Positions 39,197 through 45,359 of a DNA stretch of 64,000 nucleotides are shown here, one piece after another. Origin of the DNA: Devosia limi DSM 17137 (GTDB taxonomy: Bacteria > Pseudomonadota > Alphaproteobacteria > Rhizobiales > Devosiaceae). Position 1 is the stretch's first letter, and the number at the start of each line of letters is the position of its first letter. The translations under genes and the position numbers were made by a program. The notes below the pieces were generated by a model. It was not told the DNA's origin and did no database searches. It was given only the letters and a program-made list of their open reading frames with translations. The DNA is taken from NCBI RefSeq assembly GCF_900128975.1, contig NZ_FQVC01000011.1, forward strand, positions 1-64,000. Direction: 5' to 3'.

Positions 39197-39245
39197 CACC
39201 CGCCCCACGCGAGCCCCGATCCGTCCCTCCCCCTCCAGGGGGAGG
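39197..39245. repeat. CTCCCCCT/AGGGGGAG palindrome after uvrB
   Basis: CCCTCCCCCT-CC-AGGGGGAGG and then TAGGTGGGGGCC. This palindrome and its G-rich tail recur many times up to 40720, flanking each uvrB-tail copy. Confidence 0.7.
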
Positions 39246-39623
39246 CTAGGTGGGGGCCTCCACCGCCCTACCCGCACGCCCCGGCTCCCCCAAAATCCCC
39301 ACAACCACCGCAAACACCCCCTCCGGATTGCCCAGCACATCCGCATTGCTGAACCGCACCACCCGATATCCCTGCCCCGCCAGAAACCCCGTCCGCTGCG
39401 CATCCCGCGCCACGCCTGCCGCGGAATAGTGGCTGTCCCCATCGATCTCGAACACCAGCTTTTCCCGCTTGCAGACGAAGTCGACCACAAACGGCCCAAT
39501 CGGCGCCTGCCGCCGAAAATGCCAGCCCGTTTCCCGCCATGGCTGCAACACCACCCAAAATCGCCGCTCGGCCGGCGTCTGCTCCCGACGCAGCTTGCGG
39601 GCCAAGGAAATCTGCCTGTTCAT
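39246..39623 (-). CDS. DUF559 (Vsr-like endonuclease fold) protein
   Basis: 125 residues. DUF559 domain with PD-(D/E)xK-type core: QAPIGPFVVDFVCKREKLVFEIDGD, in which the Asp, the following Glu and the Lys-containing strand are in the expected order, plus RTGFLAGQGYRVVRFSN. Relatives resemble very-short-patch-repair nucleases and usually accompany repeats or mobile DNA; true function unknown. It lies between uvrB and the uvrB-tail array, facing uvrB. Confidence 0.87.
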   Translation of the reverse strand: MNRQISLARKLRREQTPAERRFWVVLQPWRETGWHFRRQAPIGPFVVDFVCKREKLVFEIDGDSHYSAAGVARDAQRTGFLAGQGYRVVRFSNADVLGNPEGVFAVVVGILGEPGRAGRAVEAPT

Positions 39624-39830
39624 AATGCCCCCTTACGGGAAGCTAACATCCGGCGCAGGCGTGAGAAAGCACCCCCGCCCAACCTCCCCCTAAAGGGGGA
39701 GGAGCCCCATCGTGGCCTTCACCACCCAAACCGCGCGAGCCCCAATCCGTCCCTCCCCCCTCCAGGGGGAGGTTAGGTGGGGGTCCCTCAGATCACGCCA
39801 AAACCCACCACCGTCTCCCTCACGCGCCCC

Positions 39831-39968
39831 CCTCGCCGCCGCCATCAAGGACCTAGAAACCCCGCGCGAAGCCGCCACCAATCTCGAATTCGAGCAGGCC
39901 AAACTGCGTGACGCGGTCAAACGGCTCCGCGAGATCGAACTGGCCACGCTAACGGGCGAGGTGAATGA
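39831..39968 (+). pseudogene. uvrB-tail copy 1
   Basis: Encodes [20 protein letters not shown] then QAKLRDAVKRLREIELATLT, aligning to the last 45 codons of uvrB with two single-codon deletions. The stop is read through in frame (GTG AAT GAC), so the frame runs on into unit 2. Confidence 0.85.
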
Positions 39969-40142
39969 CCACCCAACCCGCGCACCCCCACCCAACCTCC
40001 CCCTGAAGGGGGAGGAGCCCCATCGCGGCCTACACCACCGAACCGCGCGAGCCCCAATCCGTCCCTCCCCCTTCCAGGGGGAGGTTAGGTGGGGGTCCCT
40101 CAGATCCCGCCAAACCCCACCAACGTCGCCCTCACGCGCCAC

Positions 40143-40280
40143 CCTCGCCGCCGCCATCAAGGACCTCGAAACCCCGCTCGAAGCCGCCACCAATTTGGAA
40201 TTCGAGAAGGCCAGACTGCGCGACGCGGTCAAACGGCTCCGCGACATCGAACTGGCCACGCTAACGGGCGAGGTGAATGA
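40143..40280 (+). pseudogene. uvrB-tail copy 2
   Basis: Encodes [20 protein letters not shown] then KARLRDAVKRLRDIELATLT. In frame with copy 1 (distance 312 bp), so a frame of 229 codons (39712-40401) spans both. Confidence 0.85.
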
Positions 40281-40455
40281 CCACCCAACCCGCGCACCCC
40301 CACCCAACCTCCCCCTAAAGGGGCAGGAGCCCCATCGCGGCCGACACCACCCAAACCGCGCGCGCCCCAATCCGTCCCTCCCCCTTCCAGGGGGAGGTTA
40401 GGTGGGGGTCCCTCAGATCCCGCCAAAACCCACCACCATCGCCCTCAGACGCCCC

Positions 40456-40590
40456 CCTCACCGCCGTCATCAAGGACCTCGAAACCCCACACGAAGCCGC
40501 CACCAATCTCGAATTAGAGCAGGCCAGACTGCGCGACGCGGTCAAACGGCTCCGCGACATCGAACTGGACGCTAACGGGCGAGGTGAATG
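40456..40590 (+). pseudogene. uvrB-tail copy 3
   Basis: Encodes [20 protein letters not shown] then ARLRDAVKRLRDIELD, then loses frame (a short deletion in the GCCACGCTAACG segment). The most damaged copy, out of frame with copies 1 and 2. Confidence 0.8.
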
Positions 40591-40764
40591 ACCACCCAAA
40601 CCGCCCCCCCCACCCATCCTCCCCCTCGAGGGGCAGGAGCCCCATCGCGGCCTTCACCACCGCCCCCCGCGAGCCCCAATCCGTCCCTCCCCCTACCAGG
40701 GGGAGGTTAGGTGGGGGTCCCTCAGATCCCGCCAAAACCCACCACCGTCGCCCTCAGGCGCCAA

Positions 40765-40906
40765 CCTCGCCGCCGTCACCAAGAACCTCGAACCCCCGCG
40801 CGAAGCCGCCACCAACCTCGAATTCGAGAAAGCCGCAAGACTGCGCGACGAGGTCAAGCGGCTACGGGAAATGGAACTGGACACGCTGACGGGTGAGGTG
40901 AACTAA
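40765..40906 (+). pseudogene. uvrB-tail copy 4 (closest to uvrB, own stop codon)
   Basis: Encodes [20 protein letters not shown] then [20 protein letters not shown] and TLTGEVN with TAA. The first 80 bp are nearly identical to uvrB. The last 26 codons differ from uvrB at 15 synonymous positions but only one amino acid, a pattern expected of a tail that evolved as part of a functional uvrB elsewhere. Confidence 0.85.
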
Positions 40907-40934
40907 AAAGCAAAACTCCAGCTAAGCCATTGCA

Positions 40935-40964
40935 TTGTGAACCAAATTAAACAAAGCTTACAGT
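40935..40964 (+). promoter_or_regulatory. Promoter candidate of the ABC-3C island
   Basis: TTGTGA (40935-40940) and TACAGT (40959-40964) with an 18-nt spacer in an AT-rich stretch 26 bp before the first gene. Confidence 0.4.
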
Positions 40965-40989
40965 AAGTAGTGCTTTGTGAGGTCTATGG

Positions 40990-41886
40990 GTGCGTTTTGA
41001 GCGGGTTTGGTCTGGTGAAGATTGGGAGACGTACGCGCACGCATTGGTTCAGCTACGCCACGGCCCCGAAAATGTTCAACGCGTCCCAGCCAAAGTTAGC
41101 GGCGATGCGGGGCTAGAGTTCTTCACAACCAACGGCTGCCTTATCCAGTGCTACGCGCCAGAGGAAACCTCTGACACTGCCAAATCATCAAGCGCGATGA
41201 AGCAAAAGGCAACTTCTGACCTTCCCAAACTGATCAAGAACTCAAAAATCATATCCGGCATACTTCAAGATCTGAAGGCTCGCCGATGGATACTGATGTG
41301 CCCGTTTCTAGACGACAAGGATGTAATTCGACACGTTCGAGTAAAGGGGCAAGATATTCTCGCCGCCAACCTTTCTTTTGTTACTAGGGATTTTGAAGCG
41401 TTAGTTCACAGCCAAGAAGATTTTTCAGTAGAGATTGCAACGCTGAAACGGCAGTCGCTTGGCCCCAAACTGGCGTATGAACCCCCATCAGATGCAGCGA
41501 TTGCAGAGAAATCCGGAGAATTTGCCGACAAGCTGGAGGCCAAGCTCAGGCACGCTTATCCAGACATGCAAGAAAATACTCTGCGTGAGAAAAAGGAACT
41601 TTACGTTAGAGGCTTTCTGCGACGAGAAAATGCAATCAGCGCACTCCGGCGCTCCTATCCTGCGCTTTGGGAGCAATTGATCAATTCTATCGGTGCCGAA
41701 GAAACCCGCCTATCTTTGTTTGGATCTACGGAAACTCAGCCAGCGTTCAGACTAAGAGAAAGCTTAGGCAGAATAGAGCAGAGCCTAGGACGGGATTTGC
41801 CGAGCATGCCGTCCTCTCTAATCACCGACCTTTCAGTGGGCACGCTGAGCGACTGGCTTATCCGCTGCCCGCTTGATTTCGATTGA
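40990..41886 (+). CDS. ABC-3C system first component, nuclease-like
   Basis: 298 residues from a GTG with GAGG 8-11 nt upstream. The N-terminal 60 residues look like a restriction-endonuclease-fold core: helix DWETYAHALVQL, then SGDAGLEFFTTNGCLIQCYA, with Asp39, Glu43 and Gln53 placed like PD-(D/E)xK residues, although the usual Lys is not evident. The rest is helical, with no clear family (FLRRENAISALRRSYPALWE). Position as first gene before a small wHTH-like gene and a Rad50-like ATPase matches ABC-three-component systems. Base composition is clearly more AT-rich than that of its neighbours (codons such as TTA, ATA and AGA are frequent). Confidence 0.7.
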   Translation: MRFERVWSGEDWETYAHALVQLRHGPENVQRVPAKVSGDAGLEFFTTNGCLIQCYAPEETSDTAKSSSAMKQKATSDLPKLIKNSKIISGILQDLKARRWILMCPFLDDKDVIRHVRVKGQDILAANLSFVTRDFEALVHSQEDFSVEIATLKRQSLGPKLAYEPPSDAAIAEKSGEFADKLEAKLRHAYPDMQENTLREKKELYVRGFLRRENAISALRRSYPALWEQLINSIGAEETRLSLFGSTETQPAFRLRESLGRIEQSLGRDLPSMPSSLITDLSVGTLSDWLIRCPLDFD

Positions 41887-41893
41887 GCGCCGC

Positions 41894-42361
41894 ATGTCCG
41901 ATATTGACCACAAGGAGGGCTTCACCTTCACAAGCCGCCCTGTTCCCGTACCTGGTGATCTCAGGATAACATGGCGCATCAGTGTGCTTCTAATGATGCT
42001 GTCGGCATCGAGAGCTGACCAAGCCTCACTAGCCAAGCTCAACATTATTTCTGCGGCAGTTAACTCAACGGCGGCTTTAAATCTTCTTGAGAAGATTATC
42101 GCTGGGGGCGCCCCAACCGTGGCTTGGAAAATGGGCGTAGAGCCGGCTTTGGGCCGTGCGGTCGATTTACTGGTGGGAGATGGACTGGCGAAATGGAAGC
42201 CAGTATCTGGTCGCGCTGGCGTAGTTCTTACAGTCACAGGAAAAGCAGCTTGCTCCGCCATCATTGCAGATGGAGACGTTCTCTCAGAAGAGAAATCCAT
42301 TATCAAGCAACTCGCCAAGATAACAACAGAGACTCTAGTTTCATCAATTATTTCACTATGA
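41894..42361 (+). CDS. ABC-3C system middle component
   Basis: 155 residues. The segment SRPVPVPGDLRITWRISVLL and the following short-helix pattern (LAKLNIISAAVNSTAALNLL) match my memory of proteins called ABC-three-component system middle component, likely a winged-helix adaptor between the ATPase and the effector. The ATG at 41894 is 7 bp after the first gene's stop; a TTG at 41873 would overlap it. It ends 4 bp before the ATPase start. No enzyme motif is visible. Confidence 0.75.
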   Translation: MSDIDHKEGFTFTSRPVPVPGDLRITWRISVLLMMLSASRADQASLAKLNIISAAVNSTAALNLLEKIIAGGAPTVAWKMGVEPALGRAVDLLVGDGLAKWKPVSGRAGVVLTVTGKAACSAIIADGDVLSEEKSIIKQLAKITTETLVSSIISL

Positions 42362-42365
42362 GCAC

Positions 42366-44396
42366 ATGATGTTTAGAATCAATAACATTTCGCTCCGAGC
42401 ATCTACTGCCGCAACGAAGTTCGGCGCTGAGATTCCTCTGAAGCCCGGTCTAAACATAGTCTCTGCTAGAAACTCCGCCGGGAAATCCACCGCGCTTCAA
42501 GCAATAATTTATGGCCTCGGACTTGAACGATCGCTCAGCCCGAGTCTAGAGGTCCCTCTCCCCTACGCATTGCGGCAACGGCTCCATGCGGCTCCCGAAC
42601 TCGCGTACCAAGACGTCATTTCCTCTCATGTTGAACTGGAATTACAGAACAACTCGGGTCAAAGGGTCCTGTTGCACAGAGATATTGTTGGAGGCGCGGA
42701 GAGAAAACTCATCAGGGCCACGATCTATTCCGGCGAACATGCCGAGAAACGTGACTTCTTTGTCCACGATCCTGGCGCAGCGCAGAATGAGGATGGCTTC
42801 CACAAATTCCTTGAAAAGTTTCTCGGTTGGACTTTGCCTTCTGTTCCGACGTTTGATGGCCGTGAAGTACTTCTATATGTCGAAGCCATATTTCCAATGC
42901 TCTTCGTGGAACAAAAGCGCGGATGGTCAACAATACAAGGTCCGCTCCCAACTCACTTCAAGATTCAGGACCTCAACCGGCGGGTAATGGAATTTCTACT
43001 CGACTTGGACGTAGCAAAGTTACGCCGTAGACAGTCAGAGCTCAGGCTACAGCTGTCCGAATTAACCTCACAATGGCACGCGGTCGGCACGGAACTTAGG
43101 GCCGCCGCTGGCGTAGGCTTTAAAGTAAGCGCCTTCCCGCCAGAGCCGAGGGGCGCTGCTTCCGCATTGTCGATCAGTTTCGAAGCATTCAACGATGACA
43201 AATGGGTCCCGCTCGACGAGCACATCGTGTCTCTGGCTAAAGAAGCCGAGGAAATTGAGATCGATTTTTCGCAAAATGTAGAAGACGCAGCGCCGGGCCT
43301 ACAATTGCAGCTTGCCCGGAGCAGAGAGCGGTTGGAAGAATTAAATGTTCGAATGTCTAGCATACGGCAAGAGTGGGTTTTACTTCACGCCGATGCACAA
43401 TCGTTGCGGGAGCGCATTGCAACGCTTGATGTGGACCTTACGCGAAACAAGGATGCTGCAAAACTAAAGAGGCTTGGATCTGTAATAGGATCTGCGGCAG
43501 CCACACATGTTTGTCCCACATGCCATCAAGAATTGCAGACGGAGCTGCTTCCGACTTCCTCTTCCCCGGCCATGGCAATCGAAGAAAACGTCGAATTCAT
43601 TCGGTCACAACTGAAACTTTGCAACGCAAATCTGTCTTCCAACTTGAGATCGATGGAGCAAGTCCAAGAACTTCATGCGGCCGTTCAGCAGGAAGTTCAA
43701 TCAGTCCAGCAGCGAATACGCCAAATTCGTGGTGAGCTGACCAAGCCGGCGACATCTGTCTCACGTGCTAGTTTAATGCGCTCAGTCGAAATTGCGTCTG
43801 CAATTGATAACGCAAAAAAACTACTACAGTCACTTGCTGGACTTCGAGACGGCCTGGTCTTGATAGCCGAACGACATAAGACTCTGTCAGAAGAGCTAAA
43901 ATCGATCGGAAAACAGGAATTAAGTCCCGAAGATTTGGAGAAGATCGAATATTTTCAGTCTAACCTACGCAAAAGGCTAGAGAATTACTCTTTCAAGAGC
44001 TTCAATCCTAGCGAAATTTCTTTGTCTGATGACAATTTTAGGCCACTAGTCGTAAGCAGAACCGACGTCGGAGTATTAGAGCGGGAGCTGGGGTTCGAGA
44101 TGTCAGCAAGTGACGGCATTAGGATGAAATGGGCTTACTACCTGTCGCTTTTGCAATGCTCGCAGAAATTCTCGACAAACCATCCGGGCGTGGCAGTATT
44201 CGACGAACCGGGGCAGCAAGCGATGGAGTTGGATAGTATTAGATCGTTCCTCGTAGATGCATCTCATTTTTCGCCACGAGATTCACAGATCATTGTCGCC
44301 GCCACGTACGAAAACGTAGCGCCCTTGATACCTGAGCTTTCTGCGCTGGACGTGAACAGGGTGCACTTCGACGGGTTGCTTCTTCAGCCACTTTGA
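42366..44396 (+). CDS. ABC-3C system Rad50/SMC-like ATPase
   Basis: 676 residues (ATG at 42366, or the adjacent ATG at 42369). N-terminal ATPase half with Walker A ARNSAGKST (residues 34-42; Ala replaces the first Gly, which is allowed) and a Q-loop in FVEQKRGWS. Long coiled coils run over about residues 210-560 with a CPTC zinc-hook-like pair at about residue 383 (HVCPTCHQEL). The C-terminal half has the ABC signature region MSASDGIRMKWAYYLSLLQ and Walker B GVAVFDEPGQQ (about 610). The usual H-loop His is replaced (IIVAATYEN). It should hold or sense DNA ends or unusual DNA and drive the partner proteins. Confidence 0.82.
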   Translation: MMFRINNISLRASTAATKFGAEIPLKPGLNIVSARNSAGKSTALQAIIYGLGLERSLSPSLEVPLPYALRQRLHAAPELAYQDVISSHVELELQNNSGQRVLLHRDIVGGAERKLIRATIYSGEHAEKRDFFVHDPGAAQNEDGFHKFLEKFLGWTLPSVPTFDGREVLLYVEAIFPMLFVEQKRGWSTIQGPLPTHFKIQDLNRRVMEFLLDLDVAKLRRRQSELRLQLSELTSQWHAVGTELRAAAGVGFKVSAFPPEPRGAASALSISFEAFNDDKWVPLDEHIVSLAKEAEEIEIDFSQNVEDAAPGLQLQLARSRERLEELNVRMSSIRQEWVLLHADAQSLRERIATLDVDLTRNKDAAKLKRLGSVIGSAAATHVCPTCHQELQTELLPTSSSPAMAIEENVEFIRSQLKLCNANLSSNLRSMEQVQELHAAVQQEVQSVQQRIRQIRGELTKPATSVSRASLMRSVEIASAIDNAKKLLQSLAGLRDGLVLIAERHKTLSEELKSIGKQELSPEDLEKIEYFQSNLRKRLENYSFKSFNPSEISLSDDNFRPLVVSRTDVGVLERELGFEMSASDGIRMKWAYYLSLLQCSQKFSTNHPGVAVFDEPGQQAMELDSIRSFLVDASHFSPRDSQIIVAATYENVAPLIPELSALDVNRVHFDGLLLQPL

Positions 44397-44466
44397 TTCC
44401 CCCCAACTTCTCCCCCTCCCTCCCCCATGCCCCATACTCCCCCGGTTTCAACCCCGGGAGTAACCC

Positions 44467-44847
44467 ATGCCCCAGCGCCGACCAAAGCCCCGTCCAGCGC
44501 CGCCGCTGCGCTTTTCGCGCAGCATCGTGCAGTGCCATTTGCGTCTCAGCCGGCAGGTGAGCGTGCTGCGGGCGGTGTTGCAGGAGCACAAGGCGGGGCC
44601 GGTCGCCGCCGAGACGGTGGCCTTCGTCAACAGCATGCTGATCGAGGCGCAGCGCCTTTATGGCCGTGAGCCCGACATTGCCCGGTTTCAGCTGCTGCCG
44701 CCCGATGCGCGGCTGACCCTGTTTGATCTGCGCCTGATCAACCAGCGGCTGCGCGATGCCGATGCCGTCTTCGCCGATCGCTATGAGGGCCTGCTTTGGC
44801 CGCCTGACGAAACGCCTGGAGCCGACCGGCCATGGCAGGGTGATTGA
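44467..44847 (+). CDS. Hypothetical protein
   Basis: 126 residues with GGGAG upstream of the ATG. Basic, Pro/Arg-rich N-terminus (PQRRPKPRPAPPLRFSRSI) then a helical body (AVLQEHKAGPVAAETVAFVN). The second half of the frame (LTLFDLRLINQRLRDADAVF) is helix-forming. I do not recognise a family. High-GC codon use returns here, so the acquired island ends before it. Confidence 0.55.
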   Translation: MPQRRPKPRPAPPLRFSRSIVQCHLRLSRQVSVLRAVLQEHKAGPVAAETVAFVNSMLIEAQRLYGREPDIARFQLLPPDARLTLFDLRLINQRLRDADAVFADRYEGLLWPPDETPGADRPWQGD

Positions 44848-45359
44848 AAAACTTATCCCCGCCCGCTGGCGGCCATGCCAGACTGCTGTCCATCCCCCGC
44901 CACGGAACGCGGCGCTGACGAGGCGCCGGGCGGCCGGCCGGTGGCCACGGGGCGTCGCTCGAGAGGCGCCTCGCGGTCACCGGTTGGTTCGGGGAGATGG
45001 GGAGGTCGGGGTCGCCCGGCTTCGGTGGGCGACACCGTCAGCAGCGCTTGAAAAACCAGCGTCCCTGGTTCGGTCCCACCAAAAATCCCATCGTGTGCAG
45101 CGGCTTGCGCCCCACACTCTAACTTACCAGGGGCGCCAGCCGCTGCACGCCGTGCCACTCATCCCCGCAGGCCAAGCCATGCGGCGCTTCTGCACGTCTC
45201 AGCTAGCGTTTGGCCGCGAACACTGGATTGACCCCAGCCGCGGGTCAGGCCGAGCCGAAAGGGCGGGTTTTCGAGAACCGGAGCGGAGCGTACCCCGGTA
45301 CGTGAGCACCGGAAGCGGAGAATATCCGCGCTTGCAGGCCGGCCTCACCCGGAGATGGG
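44848..45359. other. Strongly palindromic intergenic region
   Basis: About 510 bp without a credible gene. Inverted repeats: GTCGCCC/GGGCGAC (45011-45033); a 19-bp arm pair matching at 18 of 19 bases (45095-45113 and 45130-45148, 16-nt loop); CCGG..GCGTAC-CCCG-GTACG..CCGG (45278-45312); GCGGA/TCCGC (45315-45329); and AGGCCGGCCT (45335-45344). No T-run follows any of them. A 225-codon frame across the region is probably accidental. Confidence 0.65.
45095..45148. repeat. 54-bp long palindrome
   Basis: Arms of 19 bp (GTGCAGCGGCT..GCCCC and its inverse) differ at one position and enclose ACACTCTAACTTACCA. It is the longest stem in this spacer; it could be a MITE-like remnant or a structured RNA. 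Confidence 0.7.

Follow-up and report, generated by a model that had tools for sequence, protein, structure and literature searches.

Three co-directional genes at positions 40990-44396 of the window, which is the stretch of 64,000 nucleotides that opens contig NZ_FQVC01000011.1 of Devosia limi DSM 17137, raise the question whether they form a defence system and how its sensor and effector would work. An earlier note had described them as an ABC-three-component (ABC-3C) island of a nuclease-like protein, a small middle component and a Rad50-like ATPase. In our view they quite probably represent a complete, horizontally acquired lmuA-lmuC-lmuB operon of the Lamassu (ABC-3C) type, inserted at the uvrB-hemH interval and with a putative anti-phage or anti-plasmid role. 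The new aspect, judged from the sequences, would be a pair of departures at two active sites, namely those of the LmuA nuclease and the LmuB ATPase.

The island consists of three intact open reading frames (ORFs), all on the + strand and separated by gaps of 7 and 4 bp:

40907-44396, + strand: AT-rich island, probably acquired, based on GC content and on the absence of a full-length LmuB match in sampled congeners
40990-41886, + strand: lmuA, GTG start, 298 aa
41894-42361, + strand: lmuC (ABC-3C middle component), ATG start, 155 aa, predicted winged-helix fold
42366-44396, + strand: lmuB, Rad50/SMC-like ABC ATPase with zinc-hook motif, 676 aa

The longest possible ORF of lmuC begins at 41873; the start given here is the ATG at 41894. 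The GC content of the island is 50.3% (0.503) versus 63.8% (0.638) in the remainder of the window. Outside the island, the GC content of 270 sliding windows of 3.4 kb spans 0.602 to 0.663, with none below 60.2%, hence the AT-richness is not due to chance. Gene arrangement and AT-richness are thus as the earlier note had stated. The promoter scan found no sigma-70-type site upstream of lmuA. Promoter-like sites number 4 compared to 1.9 (sd 1.1) in shuffled sequences and terminator-like sites 4 compared to 3.6, and we base no claim on these counts.

Membership of the three genes in Lamassu is firm. The PADLOC profiles match LmuA (PDLC03852, 1.8e-22), LmuC (PDLC03871, 9e-14) and LmuB (PDLC03863, 7e-110 over residues 1-669). 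In Pfam only AAA_23 in LmuB exceeds the cut-off for any of the three proteins, and barely so (3.7e-06; 28.1 vs 27 bits). Passages of a review place the ABC-3C systems within the Lamassu superfamily with LmuC as the 'middle component' (PMC10586767), in line with the ABC-3C assignment made before. The accompanying remark that few such systems have been tested is dated, since tests and solved structures of other members exist by now. Searching with the LmuA alignment yielded 46 genome loci, in which the gene order A-C-B recurs: a LmuC homologue is present in 45/46 and a LmuB homologue in 44/46, the exceptions being L020, which stops at a contig edge, and L046, in which no LmuB was detected. The three components, the conserved operon and the invariant active-site pattern described below were computed directly. 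The objections that the earlier note had anticipated do not hold: the small gene does match a middle-component profile, the genes stay together in relatives, and LmuB is not distributed like a housekeeping gene (full length in 0/36 congeners, see below). The segment PGDLRITWRIS, taken there as typical of middle components, stands in part. The PGDLR segment is present in LmuC, but a comparison of 18 LmuCs shows a conservation of at least 90% for only one of its residues, Arg31 (162-residue numbering).

The predicted structure of LmuA shows two domains, and its nuclease motifs lie in the first of them:

Residues ~1-155 of LmuA: N-terminal nuclease-like domain, from the predicted structure
Residues ~158-298 of LmuA: C-terminal helical domain, from the predicted structure
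41104-41148, + strand: motif II-III of LmuA, from Asp39 (41104-41106) to Gln53 (41146-41148), then Tyr55 at the canonical Lys position
41206-41229, + strand: motif IV region of LmuA with Lys73, Asp77 and Lys80, where a migrated catalytic lysine may be located

A structure prediction of LmuA had been proposed as a check in the earlier note. By fold comparison of this model, the predicted N-terminal domain is closest to PD-(D/E)XK nucleases, with Avs4 as top row and EcoT38I also listed, and likely has a core fold of this type. The predicted C-terminal domain is closest to solved LmuA entries and is likely the docking domain; the C-terminal part of LmuA is characterised as variable and as a possible docking station in passages of the review (PMC10586767). 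Sequence searches for solved relatives gave chance-level matches only for LmuA (best E 0.6), the LmuA profile (1.1) and LmuC (0.048), and for LmuB no match at 0.01.

The active site was evaluated in an alignment of LmuA from 41 of the 46 loci plus the window; left out were L020 (contig end) as well as L025, L044, L046 and L047 (split frames). Adding 178 of 179 further proteins, taken from the best 120 of 196 and the best 120 of 263 matches, gave 220 rows (214 distinct); in the diverse set, identity to the window's copy drops to ~21%. Asp39 and Gln53 are invariant (220/220) and position 43 is always acidic (220/220). Position 55, where motif III should carry its lysine, is Tyr in 210, Phe in nine and Val in one row, and Lys in none. 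Lys73, Asp77 and Lys80 are invariant as well (220/220), and the model predicts helices at 63-77 and 79-83 in this region. Precedents for lysine migration in PD-(D/E)XK families are reported in parts of PMC1913061. Based on this pattern, a helix lysine, most likely Lys73, may have replaced the motif III lysine. The earlier note had listed Asp39, Glu43 and Gln53 without a clear Lys, which is correct for the canonical position, and the conservation observed here agrees with its suggestion that the nuclease core may be a variant.

Two other readings of LmuA have to be weighed at this point. The missing lysine in all rows could equally mark a catalytically dead nuclease fold that binds DNA or a partner, defence then being achieved by sequestering foreign DNA with no cutting; inactive forms are known, as the Pfam family 'NACHT-associated inactive Restriction Endonuclease', seen for another protein, exists. 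A dead site would however be expected to drift, whereas Asp39, the acid at 43, Gln53, Lys73, Asp77 and Lys80 stay fixed despite the low identity, and migration of the lysine has been proposed elsewhere as a means of keeping the site (in passages of PMC1913061). We therefore regard a dead LmuA as unlikely. An LmuA that cuts RNA (e.g. tRNA) and defends abortively through loss of translation appears more doubtful still: the top fold match of the N-terminal domain is Avs4, EcoT38I is a DNA endonuclease, and those relatives that score best on the PADLOC profile matched by LmuA carry an ordinary QCK motif.

The motif III without lysine would also have a practical consequence: searches for nucleases that rely on the QxK pattern are predicted to miss these effectors. 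The LmuA relatives in the listed matches are named 'hypothetical protein' or 'Uncharacterized protein', and any given Pfam family matches at most one of 21 diverse LmuA members at E 0.1. Moreover L134 57-1019, a clear member of the window's LmuA clade (QCY type), has no PADLOC match at 0.001; profile-based defence annotation therefore overlooks part of the clade.

The second departure concerns LmuB, whose motifs were evaluated in 43 sequences (the window and 42 loci; of 44 loci the short L021 and L025 were left out):

42465-42491, + strand: Walker A of LmuB, ARNSAGKST; G39, K40 and S41 in 43/43, T42 in 42/43
43512-43523, + strand: zinc hook of LmuB, CPTC; C383, P384 and C386 in 43/43
44193-44210, + strand: Walker B of LmuB, AVFDEP, with catalytic Glu614; D613 and E614 in 43/43

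The signature residues S580, S582 and D583 are likewise invariant (43/43). Walker A, CPTC hook, ABC signature and Walker B had all been recognised in the earlier note, which had not pointed out that the catalytic Glu is kept, a residue lacking in the other sampled LmuB-profile matches. The coiled coil is seen only via matches to SMC/Rad50 profiles.

The Walker B Glu is present in 44/44 distinct LmuBs of the window's clade compared to 0/34 other distinct LmuB-profile matches. These others come from two sets. In the first, the Glu614 position is Ser, Asn or Gln (12/12); in the second (23/23) it is Gln in 11, Ser in four, Thr in three, Asp in three, Gly in one and Asn in one, L153 not being assessable. 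The LmuBs in the two sets that adjoin a QCY-type LmuA (L132, L134, L162) all have Glu. Distinct counts take into account the identical rows L006 and L134, L010 and L011, and L145 and L146; L164 is the window itself. In L150, L151 and L165 we observed an Asp-Asp Walker B, a third state beside Glu and the non-acidic residues. In a LmuB tree built without the Walker B columns (omitting L153, L157, L164 and L146) a single branch separates 46 Glu rows from 33 others with an SH-aLRT of 99. The tree contains several long branches, the order of its deep nodes is unsure, and some outer rows (777-894 aa, Asp-Asp) may not be Lamassu.

LmuB generally shows a Glu-to-Gln exchange in Walker B, and its hydrolysis is possibly low or absent, owing to which irreversible activation of Lamassu has been suggested (passages of PMC10586767). 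As the review says only 'generally' there, replacement of the Glu is no strict criterion for Lamassu. The window's LmuB clade is an exception to this general loss as far as the sampled sequences go, and since the catalytic Glu is found in 44/44 members and in 0/34 elsewhere, ATP hydrolysis by the window's LmuB is predicted.

How the operon works and what it acts on we infer from other Lamassu systems. LmuB dimers, joined via the zinc hook, would together with LmuC keep LmuA inactive, with LmuC bridging LmuB and LmuA. In the presence of ATP, an end or hairpin of foreign DNA would rearrange LmuB and free LmuA, which would form tetramers and degrade DNA such that the infection or the plasmid-bearing cell is stopped. 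Sensing of DNA ends (PMC12904381) and release of LmuA with tetramers activating the nuclease (PMC12409362) are described for other Lamassu in parts of the respective papers. Two steps would be special to the window's clade: the nuclease would use Asp39, the acid at 43, Gln53 and, to replace the motif III lysine, one from the next helix, most likely Lys73, and LmuB would hydrolyse ATP and may thus reset, being no one-shot switch.

Taken together, we tentatively propose, at a little less than an even chance, a Lamassu clade that combines a working ATPase cycle of the sensor, the other sampled lineages being without the catalytic Glu, with a nuclease effector whose lysine has moved to a helix. 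If this is true, such a system could run through repeated cycles, reset itself and proofread when it meets host DNA, and Lamassu would occur in reversible and irreversible forms that are one residue apart. The best-studied Lamassu ATPase is thought to hydrolyse little or no ATP, suggesting irreversible activation (passages of PMC10586767), and the clade with intact Glu offers a natural contrast. With this contrast one can test whether ATP hydrolysis enables an SMC-type sensor to distinguish host from foreign DNA ends.

A full match to the window's LmuB was found only in the own genome among 37 genus genomes; none of the other 36 has a full-length match and one shows a weak match of 17.7 bits. 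G293, a congener outside the 37-genome set, carries a different Lamassu-type LmuB. The closest LmuA relative among the matches listed is 58% identical. Given this distribution, the operon was most likely acquired. Plasmid records matched LmuB in 24 and LmuA in 23 cases, with at least 12 accessions common to the best 15 of each. Carriage by phages was rejected, as LmuA has no match in 50,697 phage records. In an Azospirillum plasmid copy (L140 6069-6874) lmuA is separated from the next gene by an IS5-like transposase, and this copy may therefore be interrupted. The LmuA-profile tally of 17/297 genomes is not used as a prevalence because the same search at first missed the window's own LmuA.

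The operon is located between uvrB and hemH (interval 39197-45359). Of 20 congener uvrB loci fetched (L079-L098), 19 were usable and one comprised only 20 bases; hemH is within reach in 12 of the 19. The interval is nearly empty in G013 (0.45 kb) and measures 3.5-5.7 kb in the other 11. In PADLOC scans of the interval proteins of nine congeners, seven had matches with E values no higher than 0.001:

G029: AAA_15 with PDC-M55
G018: Beta_protein with IrrE
G001: PD-T4-4-like ATPase
G014: SIR2-STAND
G019: DpdB and adjoining adenine methylase
G032: ORC-CDC6-like (weak)
G025: OLD-like

No PADLOC match at E 0.001 was obtained for the interval proteins of G020 (AAA_16) and G003. Elsewhere G016 has a Mrr_cat protein (Pfam), and in G007 DUF559 alone was seen. 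The cargo differs between congeners and is often defence-like, which gives the interval the look of a defence hotspot with core genes as anchors. A Rad50-like operon for DNA repair or housekeeping and without defence role, to which the likeness of LmuB to Rad50/SMC proteins and its intact catalytic Glu, a residue typical of repair enzymes, would point, is very improbable and was rejected on distribution (0/36 sampled congeners with full-length LmuB), and the AT-rich island, the best profiles being Lamassu, the 24 plasmid records and the often defence-like genes that other genomes carry in this interval argue against it too.

Outside the operon, the left part of the interval contains:

39246-39623, - strand: DUF559 endonuclease-like gene (2e-31), between uvrB and the tail repeats
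39823-40906, + strand: four uvrB 3'-end copies, diverged

DUF559 relatives near uvrB also occur in G007, G016, G018, G020 and G032. Positions 39669-40906 form four tandem units of ~312 bp, each a uvrB 3'-end copy plus a palindromic GC-rich repeat. Three copies are decayed and the last is in frame, differing from the genomic tail by 16 synonymous and 6 non-synonymous codons and one missing codon. A foreign-species origin of the last copy was considered and dropped; its nearest sequence is that of G018 (86.3%, own genome 84.8%), and 18 vs 20 mismatches are not decisive. Tail copies follow uvrB in 6/19 congener loci (G001, G004, G014, G019, G032, G033). As the stop codon of the in-frame last copy abuts the left edge of the island (40907), the sequence suggests that the uvrB 3' end serves as joining point.

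How does the proposed Lamassu operon compare with known systems? The PD-(D/E)XK families DUF506, DUF790 and DUF1626, compared by description only, have lost the motif III Lys, and the helix of motif IV carries a positively charged residue; in passages of PMC1913061 they are not described as defence effectors. The N-terminal nuclease domain of Avs4 (PDB 8dgf), with which LmuA shares no detected sequence match, is part of a 1534-residue chain solved with phage portal according to the entry title. Lamassu-Cap4 including Vibrio DdmABC has the same operon architecture with a Cap4_nuclease (PF14130) effector (passages of PMC10586767 and PMC12409362). A Cap4 effector was rejected by profile for LmuA, as PF14130 matches 0/21 diverse relatives at E 0.1 and hhalign against three Cap4 sequences gives a probability of 0.3; the fold comparison listed no Cap4 domain for the N-terminal domain, which is not decisive. 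A zinc hook as in the window's LmuB occurs in many Lamassu LmuBs, whose Walker B in contrast shows Glu-to-Gln where the window's LmuB keeps Glu (both in passages of PMC10586767). In PDC-M68 (L117, G037) the A protein has the same QCY...KxxxDxxK pattern, an N-terminal LmuA match (5.5e-10) and an adjoining LmuB-like ATPase, but a different C-terminal domain (PDC-M68A profile, 3.3e-16). Since L117 thus pairs the same N-terminal pattern with another C-terminal domain, the effector domain seems to be exchanged between systems. Canonical QCK Lamassu (best PDLC03852/PDLC03863 members; L104-L109, L125-L131) matches the same LmuA profile and shares the GDxGx[DE] motif II, the motif III Gln and a helix Lys aligned with Lys80. 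The direct profile-profile likeness of the LmuAs is weak (hhalign probability 2.9, E 0.015, with the six QCK members L104-L109), which slightly lowers our confidence in the overall reading of the operon. In contrast to the window's clade, the motif III of canonical LmuA reads QCK instead of QCY/QCF, the Walker B of the accompanying LmuB is DS in 7/7 instead of DE, and these LmuBs fall across the supported tree branch from the window's clade.
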